Shown here one piece after another: positions 2,733 to 52,751 of a DNA stretch of 64,000 nt. The stretch spans positions 248,001 to 312,000 of the forward strand of contig NZ_JACHFJ010000003.1 of the NCBI RefSeq assembly GCF_014201825.1, given 5' to 3'. Position 1 is the stretch's first letter. Each line of letters begins with the position of its first letter. The notes under the pieces are model-generated. The model saw only the letters and a list, made by a program, of their open reading frames with translations. It searched no databases and was not told the origin of the DNA. A program made the position numbers and the translations under genes. Source of the DNA: Acidocella aromatica. GTDB taxonomy: Bacteria > Pseudomonadota > Alphaproteobacteria > Acetobacterales > Acetobacteraceae.

Positions 2733-4660
2733 TCCGCCGGCAACTCCCTCACATCATCCATCGCCGCAGTTTCGGCTAGCTTTGGCAGGCTCAACGACAC
2801 TTCCGCCCCAACCCCGCCAGGGGCAGGTTTCAGCTCCAGCCGCCCACCATGGTCCTCCATGATCTTGGCGACAATGGCAAGGCCGAGTCCGGTGCCCTTG
2901 GGCTTGTGGGTTACATAGGGTTCAGCCAGCCGGGCGTGGTCCGTATCCGGCAGGCCGACGCCGTCATCTGTCACGCTGAACACCGCCATGCGGCCCTCGG
3001 CGCGCAGGCGCAGCGAGACGTGTTTCGCCCCCTCGCGCATCCCCACGGCGTCCGCCGCGTTTTGCAGCAAATTGGTCAACGCCTGGCCAAGCAAACGCCG
3101 GTCGCACACCGCTCGCAGGGGCTCCTCGATGATGACCTCCCACTCGATCTGCGGATGGGCGACGCGTTGCAGCACCATGGCCTCGCGGGCGATGCGCTCC
3201 AGGGATTCGGGGTGCATCACCGGGGCGGGCATGCGGGCGAAGGAGGAGAACTCGTCCACCATGCGCCCGATATCCCCGACATGGCGCACGATGGTCTCGG
3301 CGCATTGGGTGAAGCTCTCGGGGTCGGAGGTGATCTCCTTGGCGAAGCGGCGCTTGAGCCGCTCAGCCGAGAGCTGGATGGGGGTGAGGGGGTTCTTGAT
3401 CTCGTGCGCGATGCGCCGGGCGACATCCGCCCAGGCCGCCTTGCGCTGTGCCGCCATCAATTCCGTCACGTCGTCGAAGGTCACGATAAACCCATCCGGC
3501 ACCCCTGAATTCATCTCCGCGCCGATGCGCACCAGCAACACACGTTTCTGCATGGCGAGGCCATGCTCGACCTGCGCCGTGGCGGGGCGTTCGGGCTGGG
3601 CCATCACCGCGGCGATGAGGGGGGCGAATTCGGGCACAACCTCGGCCAGATTCCGGCCAATTTGGGGTACGAGGTCGAGTCGAAGCAATTCAGAAGCGGC
3701 ACGGTTGGGCAGTTCCACGCGGCCTTTCTTGTCCAGCCCGATCACGCCCGCCGAAACACCGTCCAGCACCGTGGCGGTGAAGCGGCGACGTTCGTCCAAC
3801 TGGTTGTTCACGTCCAGCAGCTCGCTGCGCTGGGCGGCGAGCTGGGCGGTCATGCGGTTGAAGGCGCGGGAGAGCCCGGCCACTTCGTCGCCGGTGGCGG
3901 TTTCAGGCACGCGCACGGCGAGGTCGCCATCGCGCACCTTCTCGGCGGCGCGGATGAGATGGCCAATCGGCTTGGCGATCTGGTTGGCGATAACGAGGCC
4001 GAAGCCGATGAGAGCCGAGAGCACCAGCAGCGCCAGCACCGCGATGATGAGCGCGAAGGAGACTTCCAGGCTGGCGCGGTTCTTGGCCAGGCGCTGATAC
4101 TCCGCCACCGCTTCTTGCGTCTTGTTCACATGGTCGAGGATCGCGGGGTCTACCGGCTTCTCGATCATCAGCATCATCGGCGGCGTCATGTCGAGCTTGA
4201 TGACCGCCTGCTCCACCGTGGTGCCCGGCGGGCTGATCACCGGCACCTGCCCGGTGCTGGCCTGGGCGATGGTGCGGTTGTCCGGCACCGTGGCCGCCAT
4301 GCCGGCGAACAACCCGGCGGAGGCCACGATCTCGCCGTTCAGCGGTTCGAAGATCACCGCCTGGGTCAGCCCCCGCACCGTGGCCTGGGTAACGAGGTAG
4401 GAGGCGAACTCATTGGGGTTGCCGAAGAACACCGAGCCGCCCTGCGAGAGGTCGTTGGCCATTGCCAAAGCGTCGAGCCGGATGTCGTTGTTGTGCTCTT
4501 CGAGATAGCCCTGGGCGACCTGATTACTCTCGTCCAGTGCCGTTTGCACACGCTGGTTGAACCAGGCCTGGATGCCGAAATTGAAGAATACGATGGCGAA
4601 CACCGCCACCACGATGGCCGGCACCGCCGCCACGCCGCCGAATAGGAGGGCAAGACGCAC
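2729..4660 (-). CDS. ntrY: NtrY sensor histidine kinase, main open frame (N-terminus displaced by frameshift)
   Basis: This 643-residue frame carries most of NtrY: a transmembrane segment at its start, a periplasmic sensor stretch, a second transmembrane segment (about residues 205-230), a HAMP domain (IANQIAKPIGHLIRAAE), a PAS domain, the dimerisation/phospho-acceptor helix (RRIAHEIKNPLTPIQLSAERL) and the ATPase domain (NLLQNAADAV, DDGVGLP, GTGLGLAIV). It starts with GTG mid-protein. The usual first two transmembrane helices are encoded just upstream in another frame (4680-4970), and one surplus G in the 4672-4685 region separates the halves. Rejoined, the protein would be about 747 residues, normal for NtrY. 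Either a real null or truncated allele or a sequencing error explains this. Confidence 0.9.
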   Translation of the reverse strand: MRLALLFGGVAAVPAIVVAVFAIVFFNFGIQAWFNQRVQTALDESNQVAQGYLEEHNNDIRLDALAMANDLSQGGSVFFGNPNEFASYLVTQATVRGLTQAVIFEPLNGEIVASAGLFAGMAATVPDNRTIAQASTGQVPVISPPGTTVEQAVIKLDMTPPMMLMIEKPVDPAILDHVNKTQEAVAEYQRLAKNRASLEVSFALIIAVLALLVLSALIGFGLVIANQIAKPIGHLIRAAEKVRDGDLAVRVPETATGDEVAGLSRAFNRMTAQLAAQRSELLDVNNQLDERRRFTATVLDGVSAGVIGLDKKGRVELPNRAASELLRLDLVPQIGRNLAEVVPEFAPLIAAVMAQPERPATAQVEHGLAMQKRVLLVRIGAEMNSGVPDGFIVTFDDVTELMAAQRKAAWADVARRIAHEIKNPLTPIQLSAERLKRRFAKEITSDPESFTQCAETIVRHVGDIGRMVDEFSSFARMPAPVMHPESLERIAREAMVLQRVAHPQIEWEVIIEEPLRAVCDRRLLGQALTNLLQNAADAVGMREGAKHVSLRLRAEGRMAVFSVTDDGVGLPDTDHARLAEPYVTHKPKGTGLGLAIVAKIMEDHGGRLELKPAPGGVGAEVSLSLPKLAETAAMDDVRELPAE

Positions 4661-9786: not shown

Positions 9787-9857
9787 CAGGAACTCCCCTT
9801 TTGGTTTATTGGCGGGGGGAGCCTATCCGGTGGATTCTGACCGGTGCAAGGAGAATG

Positions 9858-10117
9858 AAGTGGGGGGTTTCTGTTGCCCGGTACCCCCCGAACCGCGCTT
9901 AGCTGTTTTTAGGCAGCGACGGCGAATGCAACGTTGTTATCGTTCGCATTTAAAAATTAGCCCGATGACGGCGGTACAATGCCGGGCAAAAGATGGGTCT
10001 TTACCACGCATGTCGAGTCTGTTTCGCCCCCATGAATGGTGGAGGCGCCGGGTACTGCCCCCGGGTCCATAACGCTTATTCCACGCACCGTTTATCACCA
10101 TAGTCAGCAAGCTGACG
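9858..10117 (-). ncRNA. ssrA: tmRNA (ssrA), permuted two-piece alphaproteobacterial type
   Basis: On the minus strand the acceptor piece comes first. It has a T-arm-like GACCCGGGGGCAGTACCC and ends CGCCTCCACCA at 10037. After a 5-base spacer the coding piece begins at about 10031 with GGGGGCGAAACAGACTCGACA-type sequence, so GGGGGCG can pair with CGCCTCC as the acceptor stem. The tag frame runs 9947 to 9909 and encodes ANDNNVAFAVAA followed by TAA, ending in the degradation signal AVAA. Downstream, GGGGGG and CCCCCC runs fit a pseudoknot near 9862. A TATATT box at 10128-10123 suggests transcription starts near 10117. The RNA rescues stalled ribosomes with SmpB. Exact ends are approximate. Confidence 0.95.
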
Positions 10118-10175
10118 GAGCTAATATAGGCGAGGGACGCTGGCTGCGAAAGGGGGGCGGTGTTATTGAGCGGAT

Positions 10176-11081
10176 ATGACACTGACACCTGAGCAGACCG
10201 CCGAAATCGCCACCGCCCGCGCCCAGACGCACAGCACGCTGCGCCCCACCGTACCGGCGTTGGAGGAATTGCTGTTCACCGCTTTTCCCGTGCTCGACCA
10301 CGGTTTTATCCGCGTGGTGGACTATATGGGCGACGATTCCGCCGTGGTGCAGGCGGCGCGTGTCTCCTACGGGCGCGGCACGCGCAAGGCGCTGGAGGAT
10401 GCCGGGCTGATCCGCTACCTGATGCGCCATTACCACTCGACCCCGTTCGAGATGTGCGAGATCAAGTTCCATGTGAAGCTGCCGATCTTCGTGGCCCGCC
10501 AGTGGATCCGCCACCGCACTGCCAATGTGAACGAGTATTCGGCGCGCTATTCCATTCTGGACAAGGATTTCTACCTCCCCGCGCAGGAGAAGCTGGCCAA
10601 GCAGTCCACCGATAACCGGCAGGGGCGGGGCGAGGTGCTGGCCCCCGCCACCGCCGAGCGCGTGCTAAACTTGCTGCGCGAGGACGCGGAGGCGACCTAC
10701 GGCCATTATGAGGAGATGCTGGGCGACGATGTGGGGCTGGCCCGCGAGCTGGCGCGCATGAACCTGACGCTCAACACCTACACGCAGTGGTACTGGAAGA
10801 CGGATCTGCACAATCTCTTCCACTTCCTGCGCCTGCGCGCGGATAGCCACGCCCAGTACGAGATCCGCGTCTATGCGGAAGAGATGCTGAAGATCGTGGA
10901 GGCCTGGGTGCCGCTCTCCTTCGCCGCGTTCCGCGACTATCGGTTGGGAGCGGTGACCTTCTCGGCCAAGATGCTGGAGCTGGTGAAGCGGATGCTGACC
11001 GGCGAGGCGGTGACGCAGGAGGCGTCGGGCCTGTCCAAGCGCGAATGGACGGAGTTCATGTCCTCGCTGGGGCGGGAGTAA
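10176..11081 (+). CDS. thyX: ThyX, flavin-dependent thymidylate synthase
   Basis: ThyX makes dTMP from dUMP using methylene-tetrahydrofolate, FAD and NADPH. The 301-residue protein carries the ThyX signature as [14 protein letters not shown] (RHRxxxxNExSxR), preceded by [21 protein letters not shown], and the SYGRGT segment near residue 65. It is slightly longer than the shortest family members because of an N-terminal extension of about 40 residues. It is transcribed divergently from tmRNA, about 60 bases from the tmRNA start. No thyA is present in the window. Confidence 0.96.
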
Positions 11082-44275: not shown

Positions 44276-45058
44276 ATGTCAGAAACGCCCAAGCCCGCCC
44301 CCACGCTGGTGGTCGAGGATATTCACAAGAGTTTCGGCAATGTGGAGGTGCTCAAGGGCGTGTCGCTGACTGCCTATGAGCATGACGTGATCGCGATCCT
44401 CGGCTCCTCGGGCTCGGGCAAGAGCACCTTCCTGCGCTGCATCAACCTGCTGGAGATGCCGGATCAGGGGCGCGTGTCCATCCGGGGCGAGCTGATCGAG
44501 ATGAAGGACGGCAAGAACCGCGCCGCCGCCAACCCCAGGCAGATCGAGCGGCTGCGCACCCGGCTCTCCATGGTGTTCCAGCAGTTTAACCTCTGGGCAC
44601 ATATGACCGTGCTGCAGAACGTGATCGAGGCGCCGGTGCATGTGCTGAAGCTGGACAAGAAAACAGCCATCGCCCGCGCAGAGGCGATGTTGGAGAAGGT
44701 CGGGCTCTCGAACAAGCTGGACGCCTACCCGGCCCAGCTCTCCGGTGGGCAGCAGCAGCGCGTGGCCATCGCCCGCGCCTTGGCCATGGAGCCGGATGTG
44801 CTGCTGTTCGACGAGCCGACATCGGCCCTGGACCCGGAATTGGTCGGGGAGGTGCTGAAGGTGATGCGCGACCTGGCCAATGAGGGGCGCACCATGCTTG
44901 TCGTCACGCATGAGATGGGCTTCGCCCGCGAGGTGGCCGACCGCGTGATGTTCCTGCACCAAGGGCGAGTGGAGGAGGAAGGCACGCCGGAGGAGATGTT
45001 CACCAACCCCAAATCCGAGCGGTTCCGGCAGTTCCTCTCCAGCGCAAGGCGCCACTGA
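44276..45058 (+). CDS. Polar amino acid ABC transporter ATP-binding protein (HisP/GlnQ/ArtP type)
   Basis: A 260-residue ABC ATPase with intact motifs: Walker [22 protein letters not shown]-loop [22 protein letters not shown], signature [15 protein letters not shown], Walker [21 protein letters not shown] and the switch histidine [11 protein letters not shown]. The ILLEMPDQG and FNLW segments place it with polar amino acid transporters. Membrane and binding-protein subunits are not adjacent, so its partners must be encoded elsewhere. It is divergent from the gcv riboswitch by under 100 bases. Confidence 0.93.
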
Positions 45059-50078: not shown

Positions 50079-50492
50079 TTAGACGGCGCTTTCGATCAGC
50101 GGCATCGCCATGCGGGACTTGGCCAGCACCATGCCGATATTGGCGGTGTTGCGGCACACGAACACGCCCACGTAATCCTGGTACTTCTTGCCGCGGATGA
50201 AGACGTGGATGTTGTTGTCGCTGTTGACGATGAACTCCTGGAAGTAATGGCGGGCGGACTCCACCCCCCGCGCGCGCTTCCAGATCGCCTCGACGGTGGC
50301 GACATTGGGGCCCTGGAACAGGTCCGAGGTGGCGGCGGCGACGAGATCGACCACTTCGCGCGGGTGGGAATCAACGGTCTTGATGCTGAGCAGGAAGCCG
50401 GACCCGACATCGATATAGCCGGCGGCGATGCATTCGGGGATGGTCGCGATCGATTGGGTCACAGCCGCATCGAGATTCGAGGTGGTGCTCAT
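50079..50492 (-). CDS. Small soluble protein of unknown function, possibly roadblock/LC7-like
   Basis: The 137-residue protein starts MSTTSNLDAAVTQSIATIPECIAAGYIDVGSGFLLSIKTVD and ends ANIGMVLAKSRMAMPLIESAV. Its order of helix-strand pairs (an opening helix with IPE, GYIDVGSGFLLSI, a central helix pair, FIVNSDNNIHVFIRG, VGVFVCRNTANIGMVLAKSR) suggests a roadblock/longin-type fold, but this is by eye only. A good ribosome-binding site (AAGGAGCT) precedes it. It lies 102 bases downstream of the ABC-phosphatase fusion on the same strand. Confidence 0.65.
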   Translation of the reverse strand: MSTTSNLDAAVTQSIATIPECIAAGYIDVGSGFLLSIKTVDSHPREVVDLVAAATSDLFQGPNVATVEAIWKRARGVESARHYFQEFIVNSDNNIHVFIRGKKYQDYVGVFVCRNTANIGMVLAKSRMAMPLIESAV

Positions 50493-50594: not shown

Positions 50595-52751
50595 TTACGG
50601 CTCTTTGTTGCCGCCGGCCACGCGGTCGCGCAACAGGTTCTGCTCCTGCTGCACTTCGTATTCGGTCAGGAAGTCCTCCTGATCGTCCGACTGCACGAAC
50701 TGGCGGTTGAAGCGGCGGATCTGGTTGAGCGCCCCTTGGGCCGACATGCCCTTCTCCTTCACCAGATAGGCGGCGAGGATGGTACCGGTGCGGCCAAGCC
50801 CGGCCAGGCAGTGCACGGCCAGCACCTTGCCGTTGTCCATCAGCTCGCGCATGCGCCCGACCAGCATGTCCATCTCGGCCGGGGTGGGCGCCTTGCGGTC
50901 GGCGATGGGCAGATGCACGTTCTTCAGCCCGTGCCGGGTCAGGGCGTCCTGCGGGAAATCCTGCTCGGTGAGGGTGATGAGCGTGGTCACGCCGACATTC
51001 TTCAGCAGGTCGAGGTCGTAATCCATATCCGCCGCCACGCCAGGCATTGGCGTCGCGGCGAGGCGTCCTTCCTCGATCCAGACAAAACCGCGCGGGCCGG
51101 AGGAGGCGCCGGGGTAGCGGGTCACCGCCACATGCTCGGGCTGGGCCAGAGCCACGGCCACGGGGGCAAGCATGGCGGGTGCCGGTTCCTCGGCCACGGG
51201 GTCTGGCTCCGGTTCTGGCGCGGGGGCCAGCGCGGCGCGGATTTCCGACTTGATGGCGGCCATGGCATCGGCGGAGAGCGGGGCGGGGGGCTGGACGTGG
51301 TCGGCCAGAACGGCGGCCTGGGCGTCCGGTGCGGGGACAGCCACGCTGCCCGTGGCCACGAACTGCGCCACCACAGGATTGGCGGTGTTGCTGAAGAACA
51401 GATCCGGCGTGGCCTGCTCTTGCACCCGGCCACCGGCGAGCAGGATGATCTCGTTGGAGATCATCTTCGCCTGCTTCTGGTTATGCAGCACTACCAGCAG
51501 CGCGCCATGCGCCCCCAGCGTTTGCAGCAGGTTGAGGACGACATCGGCATCGGCATCGGAGAGGCCGGAGGTCGGTTCGTCGATCATCAGCAGGGCGGAA
51601 TCCGCCGCCGCCTCGCGCAGAATGGTGACGACGCGCTGTGAGAGCGTGTCCAGCTCCATGAACGGCGTGTCGAGCTTGGCGATCATGTTCTCCGCCCCGA
51701 CCTGGCGGAGCCATTGGCTGGCCCAGTCGCGCTGCTCGGCTTCCGGCACGCCTTCCATCTGGCTCTTCACGTGGAATAGCAGGCTCTCCAGCGCCGAGCG
51801 CTGGGTGAGCTGGATTCGCTGCGCGACCAGCAGCGGGCGGTTTTCCATCGTGATGGGCTGGTCCTTGAACAGCGCCTCGCCCCAGCTCTTGAACAGGGCG
51901 TTCTGGCCGTACAGCCCGGCGAGCGAGCGCAGCAGGGTGGATTTGCCGGTACCGACCGGACCCATGAGCGTGGTGATGCCCTGGGCCGGGATGGCCAGCG
52001 TGACATTGTCGAGGATCACCTTGCCGCCGAATCCGACACCAAACCCGGCGCAGGTGAGGATGGCGGCGGCCGGAGCTGGCTGCGGCGCCGGTTCGGGCGG
52101 AAGCTCAAACACAGGCTCCGGCTCGGGTTTGGCCACAGGATGCAGGTCGAGAGGGGCTTCCTCTTCTGATAGCGCCGCCACGGACTCGGCTTCCACCGGC
52201 TCGGGCGGCAGGTCGATATGTTCTAGTATGGCGGTGGGATGCGGCTCGGTGATCGGCTCCAGCCGGGGGTCCACCCTGAGATCCTGCGTCAGTTCCTCGG
52301 GCTCGGGCGGCAGGTGCAGGTAATCGAGCAGCGGCTTTTCCTCGGCGGGCTCAGCCGGCAGGAAGGCGATTTCCGGCTTTTTCCTGTTCTTCTTGTCCTT
52401 GACCTTTTTGAAGTGCCGTTCGAGTTCGGCCAGTTCGCTCTCGCGCGATTGCTGGGGGCTGGCGCTGGCGGTCTCGGGGACGAAGCGCAACTCCTCACCG
52501 CTTGTGGTGAGCGTGAAGATGGACGTGTCGATCGGCCTCTCCTCCCGCCGCCGTCGGCGCGCCCGGCGCACGAGGTCCAGAAGCAGGAGGACGATGCCAA
52601 AGCCGAGAACGCCCAGCCCGATGTAGAGAATTTGTACTTCGTTCTTCAAAACCCGACCAGCCCCTGTGCTGACGGATATTTGTCGTTTGCCAGCGGCAAT
52701 CAGCTTCCAGGCAGAGCCTCGGATAAAGCATATTGACGCACGGCTAACCAA
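50595..52751 (-). CDS. Membrane-anchored fusion of an ABC-type ATPase domain with a dual-specificity phosphatase
   Basis: The open frame encodes up to 718 residues; TTG 52649 (MKNEVQILYIGLG, 684 residues) may be the true start. Order: a membrane helix (ILYIGLGVLGFGIVLLLLDLV), an acidic Pro/Glu-rich linker of about 170 residues, an ABC ATPase (Walker A GPVGTGKSTLLRSLAGLYG, Walker B ALLMIDEPTSGLSDADADVV, switch His in VVLHNQ), an Ala/Pro linker, and a tyrosine/dual-specificity phosphatase with LPIADRKAPTPAEM and the P-loop VHCLAGLGRTGT. The ABC signature LSGGQ is degenerate (DTLSQRVV). The ABC part is closest to PstB-like subunits. No permease is adjacent. Confidence 0.85.
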   Translation of the reverse strand: MVSRASICFIRGSAWKLIAAGKRQISVSTGAGRVLKNEVQILYIGLGVLGFGIVLLLLDLVRRARRRRREERPIDTSIFTLTTSGEELRFVPETASASPQQSRESELAELERHFKKVKDKKNRKKPEIAFLPAEPAEEKPLLDYLHLPPEPEELTQDLRVDPRLEPITEPHPTAILEHIDLPPEPVEAESVAALSEEEAPLDLHPVAKPEPEPVFELPPEPAPQPAPAAAILTCAGFGVGFGGKVILDNVTLAIPAQGITTLMGPVGTGKSTLLRSLAGLYGQNALFKSWGEALFKDQPITMENRPLLVAQRIQLTQRSALESLLFHVKSQMEGVPEAEQRDWASQWLRQVGAENMIAKLDTPFMELDTLSQRVVTILREAAADSALLMIDEPTSGLSDADADVVLNLLQTLGAHGALLVVLHNQKQAKMISNEIILLAGGRVQEQATPDLFFSNTANPVVAQFVATGSVAVPAPDAQAAVLADHVQPPAPLSADAMAAIKSEIRAALAPAPEPEPDPVAEEPAPAMLAPVAVALAQPEHVAVTRYPGASSGPRGFVWIEEGRLAATPMPGVAADMDYDLDLLKNVGVTTLITLTEQDFPQDALTRHGLKNVHLPIADRKAPTPAEMDMLVGRMRELMDNGKVLAVHCLAGLGRTGTILAAYLVKEKGMSAQGALNQIRRFNRQFVQSDDQEDFLTEYEVQQEQNLLRDRVAGGNKEP

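Follow-up and report, generated by a model that had tools for sequence, protein, structure and literature searches.

The gene locus and the domain layout of the fusion

The window, i.e., the complete analyzed stretch of 64,000 nt of Acidocella aromatica DNA, contains a gene that encodes an ABC ATPase domain and a dual-specificity phosphatase (DSP) domain in one chain (Table 1). The order along the locus is lepA, tRNA-Ser, the fusion gene, a gene for a 137-aa protein, and then three genes that are sir2-like, FusC-like (a membrane transporter), and HlyD-like; the names were assigned from sequence. lepA and tRNA-Ser lie upstream of the fusion on the same strand, and the same lepA, sir2, fusC, and hlyD neighbors were recognized at other fusion loci. 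No permease of the ABC type was seen next to the fusion in the window, in line with the initial annotation, and an ordinary amino-acid-type ABC ATPase is encoded about 5.5 kb away (44276-45058). No terminator-like site was predicted in the interval that separates the fusion from the 137-aa gene; in the scanned stretch, such sites were no more common than in shuffled sequences. Elsewhere in the window, at 9818-10129, ARAGORN found a tmRNA gene with the tag ANDNNVAFAVAA.

Table 1. Positions of the fusion gene, its domains and motifs, and the adjacent 137-aa gene in the window.
Feature	Position	Strand	Remarks
ABC-DSP fusion gene	50595..52649	minus	684 aa, probable TTG start; longer open frame 50595-52751
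Single N-terminal membrane helix, then RRARRRRREER	52572..52634	minus	from sequence; exact ends predicted
Acidic Pro/Glu/Ala-rich linker 1, predicted disordered	52080..52511	minus	pLDDT mostly <50
ABC nucleotide-binding domain	51348..52073	minus	
Walker A GPVGTGKST	51936..51962	minus	GPANSGRST in G016/G017
ABC signature position, LDTLS instead of LSGGQ	51639..51653	minus	from alignment
Walker B LLMIDEP with catalytic Glu	51573..51593	minus	
Switch (H-loop) histidine	51483..51485	minus	
Dual-specificity phosphatase domain and conserved C-terminal helices	50595..51128	minus	PF22784/PF00782
General-acid aspartate of LPIADRKAP	50898..50900	minus	Glu in G016/G017
Phosphatase P-loop HCLAGLGRTG	50784..50813	minus	HSHASLGRTG in G016/G017
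137-aa gene	50079..50492	minus	102 nt downstream of fusion; predicted Roadblock/LC7 fold, MglB-like

The frame 50595-52751 is open throughout. Pfam searches revealed PF00005 (ABC_tran, E 1.9e-13) and, in the phosphatase part, PF22784 (PTP-SAK, E 2.6e-20; 73.5 bits versus a cut-off of 27) and PF00782 (DSPc, E 1.9e-14). Together with 11 genomes that have the gene in one frame, this confirmed the initial description of an uninterrupted ABC-DSP frame on a membrane anchor. The span first given to the gene was the whole open frame, but translation probably starts at the TTG at 52649, because a TTG occupies the same position in all six fusion loci compared and clear similarity in the preceding residues is limited to the near relative G030. 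Five other genomes (G022, G025, G026, G016, and G017) have an ATG 13-16 codons upstream of the TTG position, and the start codons of their fusions may differ from that of the window.

The chain is composed of a membrane helix, an Arg-rich inner flank, linker 1 (144 aa), the ABC domain, linker 2 (72 aa), and the phosphatase. In the predicted structure, the helix comprises residues 2-36 (block pLDDT 65-89), and the positive-inside rule would place the N-terminus outside and the C-terminus inside. Linker 1 varies from 59 to 281 aa across the 11 one-frame fusions. The whole-chain model had a mean pLDDT of 64.0 and a pTM of 0.40; its confidence was good for the ABC domain (block means mostly 80-93), middling for the phosphatase, and mostly below 50 for the linkers. 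A structure search with the model returned, among the matches listed, only ABC proteins and no DSP fold, and the DSP assignment rests on sequence.

Conservation of the ABC and phosphatase motifs

The fusion carries the ABC-ATPase marks Walker A, Walker B with the catalytic Glu, and the switch His, and it has LDTLS in place of the LSGGQ signature. A degraded signature had been noticed before, and the loss of LSGGQ stands, but the motif had been placed at DTLSQRVV, while in the alignment it is LDTLS that coincides with LSGGQ. LSGGQ was found in none of the 13 orthologs (12 fusions and the ABC-only gene of G004). The variants at this position in the other orthologs are LDTLT, LEPVY, LGGLA, LPPLA, LDQLS, LDPLS, and LPPGL, and one of the two LSGGQ glycines is positionally kept in G031 (LGGLA) and G004 (LPPGL). 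For comparison, SGGQQQRLCIAR was present in 14 of 15 PstB-profile loci, SGGQQQRLCIAR having also been the search string.

The switch His, initially described as kept, is indeed present in seven carriers, i.e., the window fusion and six others (together G000, G030, G013, G014, G020, G031, and G018), but it is replaced by Gln in five of the 12 fusions (G016, G017, G022, G025, and G026) and in ABC-only G004. The Walker B Glu and the Q-loop Gln occur in all 12 carriers and the Walker A Lys in 10, and the same 10 have the HCX5R loop and the Asp of LPIADRKAP, which we take to be the general acid as in the PTP family. The best conserved stretches of the ABC domain were QRVVTILREAAA, the Q-loop segment NRPLLVAQRIQL, and Walker A. 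The conservation of the D-loop and signature stretches (0.57 and 0.64) was near the domain mean of 0.61, in a profile that comprised nine of the 12 ABC rows (G030, G017, and G004 were dropped).

In G016/G017, the Walker A Lys, the phosphatase Cys, and the general-acid Asp are all replaced, and both domains are retained. Both catalytic centers are probably dead in this lineage; the double loss is a single event in one sister pair and carries no statistic. The joint loss of the Walker A Lys and the catalytic Cys in proteins that keep both domains points to a joint function of the two domains. Catalysis is dispensable in G016/G017, because it was lost there while the protein was kept. ATP binding is likely in the other 10 of the 12 carriers because their Walker motifs are kept, and phosphatase activity is likely in the same 10 because the HCX5R loop is intact. 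Without a signature motif, the normal ATP-sandwich dimer of ABC ATPases is unlikely to form, and such a dimer is thus unlikely for the fusion.

Distribution, selection, and descent of the fusion

At E 1e-30 or better, the fusion matched in 13 of the 38 genus genomes, 12 times with both domains and once (G004) with the ABC domain only; the other 25 had no match. In 11 of the 12 carriers, both domains reside in a single unbroken frame, and in G014 the halves stop at contig ends. Splitting of homologs into two genes, or a join created by the assembly, had been considered in the initial annotation, and the results spoke against both.

In the wider family, a search that scored three candidates per genome yielded a fusion match at E 1e-25 in five of 299 genomes, all of this genus and thus in one of 96 genera. 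Among ten loci listed, seven were true relatives (three titled Acidocella, four unplaced MAGs) and the remaining three were ABC proteins of 23-29% identity. The ABC profile gave 354-436 bits for orthologs and 90 for the next ABC protein. The DSP profile matched in 17 of the 299 genomes, including four from this genus; outside the genus, the 13 matches reached at most 64 bits and were either small frames or parts of frames with other domains. Three of these DSP relatives from other genera (L064, L067, and L068) are followed in the same frame by what is presumably an ADP-ribosylglycohydrolase-like domain, and the relatives L066 and L070 share another C-terminal stretch.

Plasmid-borne copies were rejected: 2,294 plasmid records matched, and none covered 80% of the fusion. 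The 15 plasmid matches listed included only the ABC part, 13 under annotated ABC genes and two unannotated. PHROGs and PADLOC gave P-loop/ABC matches to the fusion, and PHROGs also two in the DSP part.

A midpoint-rooted LepA tree was calculated for 29 of the 38 genomes; it lacks nine that had no full lepA match, among them G017 and G018. All 10 carriers present fell inside one clade of 17 (support 99/99), in which G004 and six genomes without a fusion match were nested. One gain and several losses are the simplest reading, and some of the six no-match genomes are incomplete. G004 grouped with G001 inside the carrier clade in the LepA and the asd+LepA trees; its ABC-only gene was therefore rejected as the ancestral state, a secondary loss of the phosphatase being more likely. 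In the ABC tree, the G004 branch was long and its placement unsure.

Comparison of the window with G030 (Nei-Gojobori) yielded dN/dS values of 0.15 for the ABC domain, 0.08 for the DSP domain, and 0.11 for the 137-aa gene; dN was 0.13-0.16 for the linkers versus 0.05 and 0.02 for the domains. For G016 versus G017, dN/dS was 0.14 (ABC) and 0.13 (DSP). Judged by these ratios, the fusion is under purifying selection. An assembly artefact, a chance frame, or a decaying gene, which the many spurious frames of high-G+C DNA and the 25 genus genomes without a match might suggest, is refuted by the 11 one-frame orthologs, the synteny, and dN/dS values well below 1.

The Roadblock-like neighbor

Roadblock proteins are a class of NTPase regulators, and a Roadblock fold is predicted for the 137-aa protein. 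No Pfam family matched the window protein at E 10, and none of the 16 members of its family had a Robl_LC7 sequence match. Compared with MglB-type Roadblock/LC7 proteins, it differs in having 12% identity, no Robl_LC7 match, and no small GTPase gene seen adjacent. The proposal that this gene is the partner of the fusion was strengthened by the restriction of the family to fusion carriers with the switch His (seven of the 38 genomes) and by the predicted fold, but was weakened by its absence beside six of the 12 fusions. Both domains occurred together in 12 of the 13 homologs, and the neighbor adjoins the fusion at six of the 12 loci. No remnants of the gene were found in the six carriers without a neighboring copy. 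At four loci (L135, L128, L129, and L132 of G018, G022, G025, and G026), its place after the fusion is taken by another short frame, which lies on the opposite strand, encodes about 110-130 aa, and begins with a signal-like segment.

The Roadblock family was present in seven of seven switch-His carriers versus none of the five Gln fusions (none of six with G004), with a chance probability of 0.0013 when kinship is ignored. Trees of the DSP domain (12 rows) and of sir2/fusC/hlyD (13 rows, only three of them Gln rows) united the His carriers in a single clade. In the ABC tree rooted with PstB, the Gln rows lay inside the His rows with weak support, and in the asd+LepA tree, the starred branches require two or more changes. 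G017 is in none of the LepA, asd+LepA, and sir2/fusC/hlyD marker trees, and G018 is only in those that include fusC/hlyD. The match between family and switch His may be a single event, since their carriers are monophyletic in the DSP tree; with the trees in conflict, transfer of the gene block is possible.

A viral contig of 71.5 kb (L160, IMG/VR UViG_3300033513_000003) encodes, at 2998-3405, a protein that is related to the 137-aa protein with 59% identity, next to a vWA-like frame (label from sequence); the GC content was 44-47% in the stretch read. As a phage contig carries a Roadblock relative, the 137-aa gene may have a role of its own. In the genome of the window, a third paralog of the 137-aa protein lies next to a gene for a 119-aa small protein (contig C3, L138:10467-10823 and 9901-10305); the latter resembles a second Roadblock-type protein, but the case for it is weak (no Pfam match, a weak profile match with hhalign at 17%). 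The small GTPase model searched, PF00025 only, matched in eight of the 38 genomes, in every case in frames of 886-1009 aa, and the control also matched in E. coli; G030 was the one Roadblock carrier among the eight.

Matches to Hanks-type kinases were found in 32 of the 38 genomes (carriers G017 and G018 had none) and the BY-kinase model matched at E 1e-12 in 28, of which 24 were above the cut-off (carriers G014 and G020 had none). Neither kinase type was found in all carriers, and a tyrosine or Ser/Thr kinase as an obligate partner is thus not supported. The sole Hanks-type match in the window's own genome (L158:7790-9517, contig C5) is a PP2C-kinase-like chain with a C-terminal membrane helix, adjoining a metallophosphoesterase-like gene (labels likewise from sequence).

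Comparison with known systems

The ABC domain resembles PstB and the amino-acid-importer ATPases (HisP/ArtP type) in its fold, its Walker A and B motifs, and its Q-loop, and it is 27% identical to PstB of its own genome over 214 columns. Unlike these proteins, the fusion lacks LSGGQ, has a membrane helix of its own and a fused phosphatase, and no ABC permease was seen alongside. The phosphatase is similar to DUSP23 (VHZ), 25xa-type, and PTP-SAK enzymes in the HCX5R loop, the general acid, and the C-terminal helices; the nearest solved structures by sequence were 25xa (E 5.4e-26) and DUSP23 (2img, E 7.5e-22, and 4erc). The solved DUSP23/25xa chains are 150-162 aa long, whereas the phosphatase studied here forms the C-terminal part of an ABC protein with a membrane anchor. 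MlaF was among the nearest folds to the ABC domain. In MlaF-MlaB, a small partner, the STAS protein MlaB, docks on the ABC ATPase and serves a lipid transporter. In contrast, the fusion contains a phosphatase, and its small neighbor is a predicted Roadblock protein whose contact is putative.

Proposed function and alternative explanations

We propose, with a probability of about 50%, that the fusion is a membrane-tethered signaling phosphatase with a nucleotide-dependent ABC domain for docking or regulation. The single helix would anchor it in the inner membrane, and the long disordered Pro/Glu-rich linkers would enable both cytoplasmic domains to reach partners near the membrane, where the phosphatase would dephosphorylate a protein or, less likely, a lipid. 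The ABC domain would bind ATP, with the usual ATP-sandwich cycle or transport being unlikely, and its nucleotide dependence would set the place or timing of the phosphatase. In the clade of the window, the Roadblock protein, often encoded adjacent, may contact the ABC-DSP module. The analysis shows the architecture and distribution of the fusion, the selection on it, its motif losses, the predicted Roadblock fold, and the co-occurrence with the Roadblock family; from these we infer the topology, the binding of ATP, the activity and substrate of the phosphatase, its regulation, and the Roadblock contact. The lost signature and the lack of an adjacent ABC permease speak for a non-transport role. 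To this extent, the initial view of a signaling device rather than a transporter is upheld, but a general link between ATP use and dephosphorylation is not supported, given the absence of LSGGQ from all 13 orthologs, the missing switch His in five of 12 fusions, and the loss of both centers in G016/G017.

A more specific version, which we regard as improbable, would make the system the equivalent of the MglA/MglB switch for ATP. In it, the ABC P-loop domain, which lacks a signature motif of its own, would be switched by the Roadblock protein instead of the usual second ATPase subunit, and its nucleotide state would gate the fused phosphatase at the membrane. On this reading, the ABC center has decayed in the five of 12 fusion carriers without the Roadblock family: all five have lost the switch His, and one pair also the Walker A Lys as well as the Cys of the phosphatase.

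It is rather doubtful that the fusion is a scaffold or phosphate-reader, the domains of which mainly bind a nucleotide and a phosphorylated partner, with catalysis dispensable family-wide. The universal lack of LSGGQ and the loss of both centers under purifying selection in G016/G017 are in agreement with it, but the Walker A Lys, the Walker B Glu, and the Cys, Arg, and general-acid Asp of the phosphatase are present in 10 of the 12 carriers, and the loss is confined to one sister pair.

Alternatively, the protein could be the ATPase subunit of an ABC transporter with a permease encoded elsewhere and the phosphatase as an accessory domain. The importer-type fold and motifs, the nearest relatives (PstB with 97 bits, amino-acid ATPases), and the high conservation of the Q-loop segment would fit this unlikely explanation, whereas the missing LSGGQ, the switch His lost in six of 13 orthologs, the membrane helix, and the neighborhood (no ABC permease beside the fusion in the window; lepA, sir2, fusC, and hlyD at other loci) argue against it.

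Very unlikely is an origin from PstB with a role in phosphate signaling, in which the fusion would compete for PstAC or PhoU against PstB and dephosphorylate a Pho-type regulator. PstB was the best NCBIfam match, and it was also the top other ABC gene in the own genome with the A3 profile, beside phoU- and phoB-like genes. However, the score of 97 bits is far from the cut-off of 343.2 of the PstB equivalog (TIGR00972), the best solved-structure matches were amino-acid ATPases, with PstB seventh, and in the single-sequence search, the best match in the own genome was the amino-acid-type gene of the window. In addition, PstB joins the tree by a very long branch, and the fusion is not linked to pst.

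Significance

ABC and dual-specificity phosphatase domains are each common. Word searches of the open-access literature found neither their combination in one membrane-tied chain nor an ABC-Roadblock pair. If the ABC domain controls the phosphatase, an ABC fold would have turned from a motor into a regulator, and if the Roadblock protein contacts the fusion, Roadblock control would extend from Ras-like GTPases to an ABC ATPase. G016/G017 represent a natural double loss of both catalytic centers in a retained protein. The fusion is known in a group of acid-loving Acidocella-type bacteria, in which it looks like a signaling device and not like a pump.
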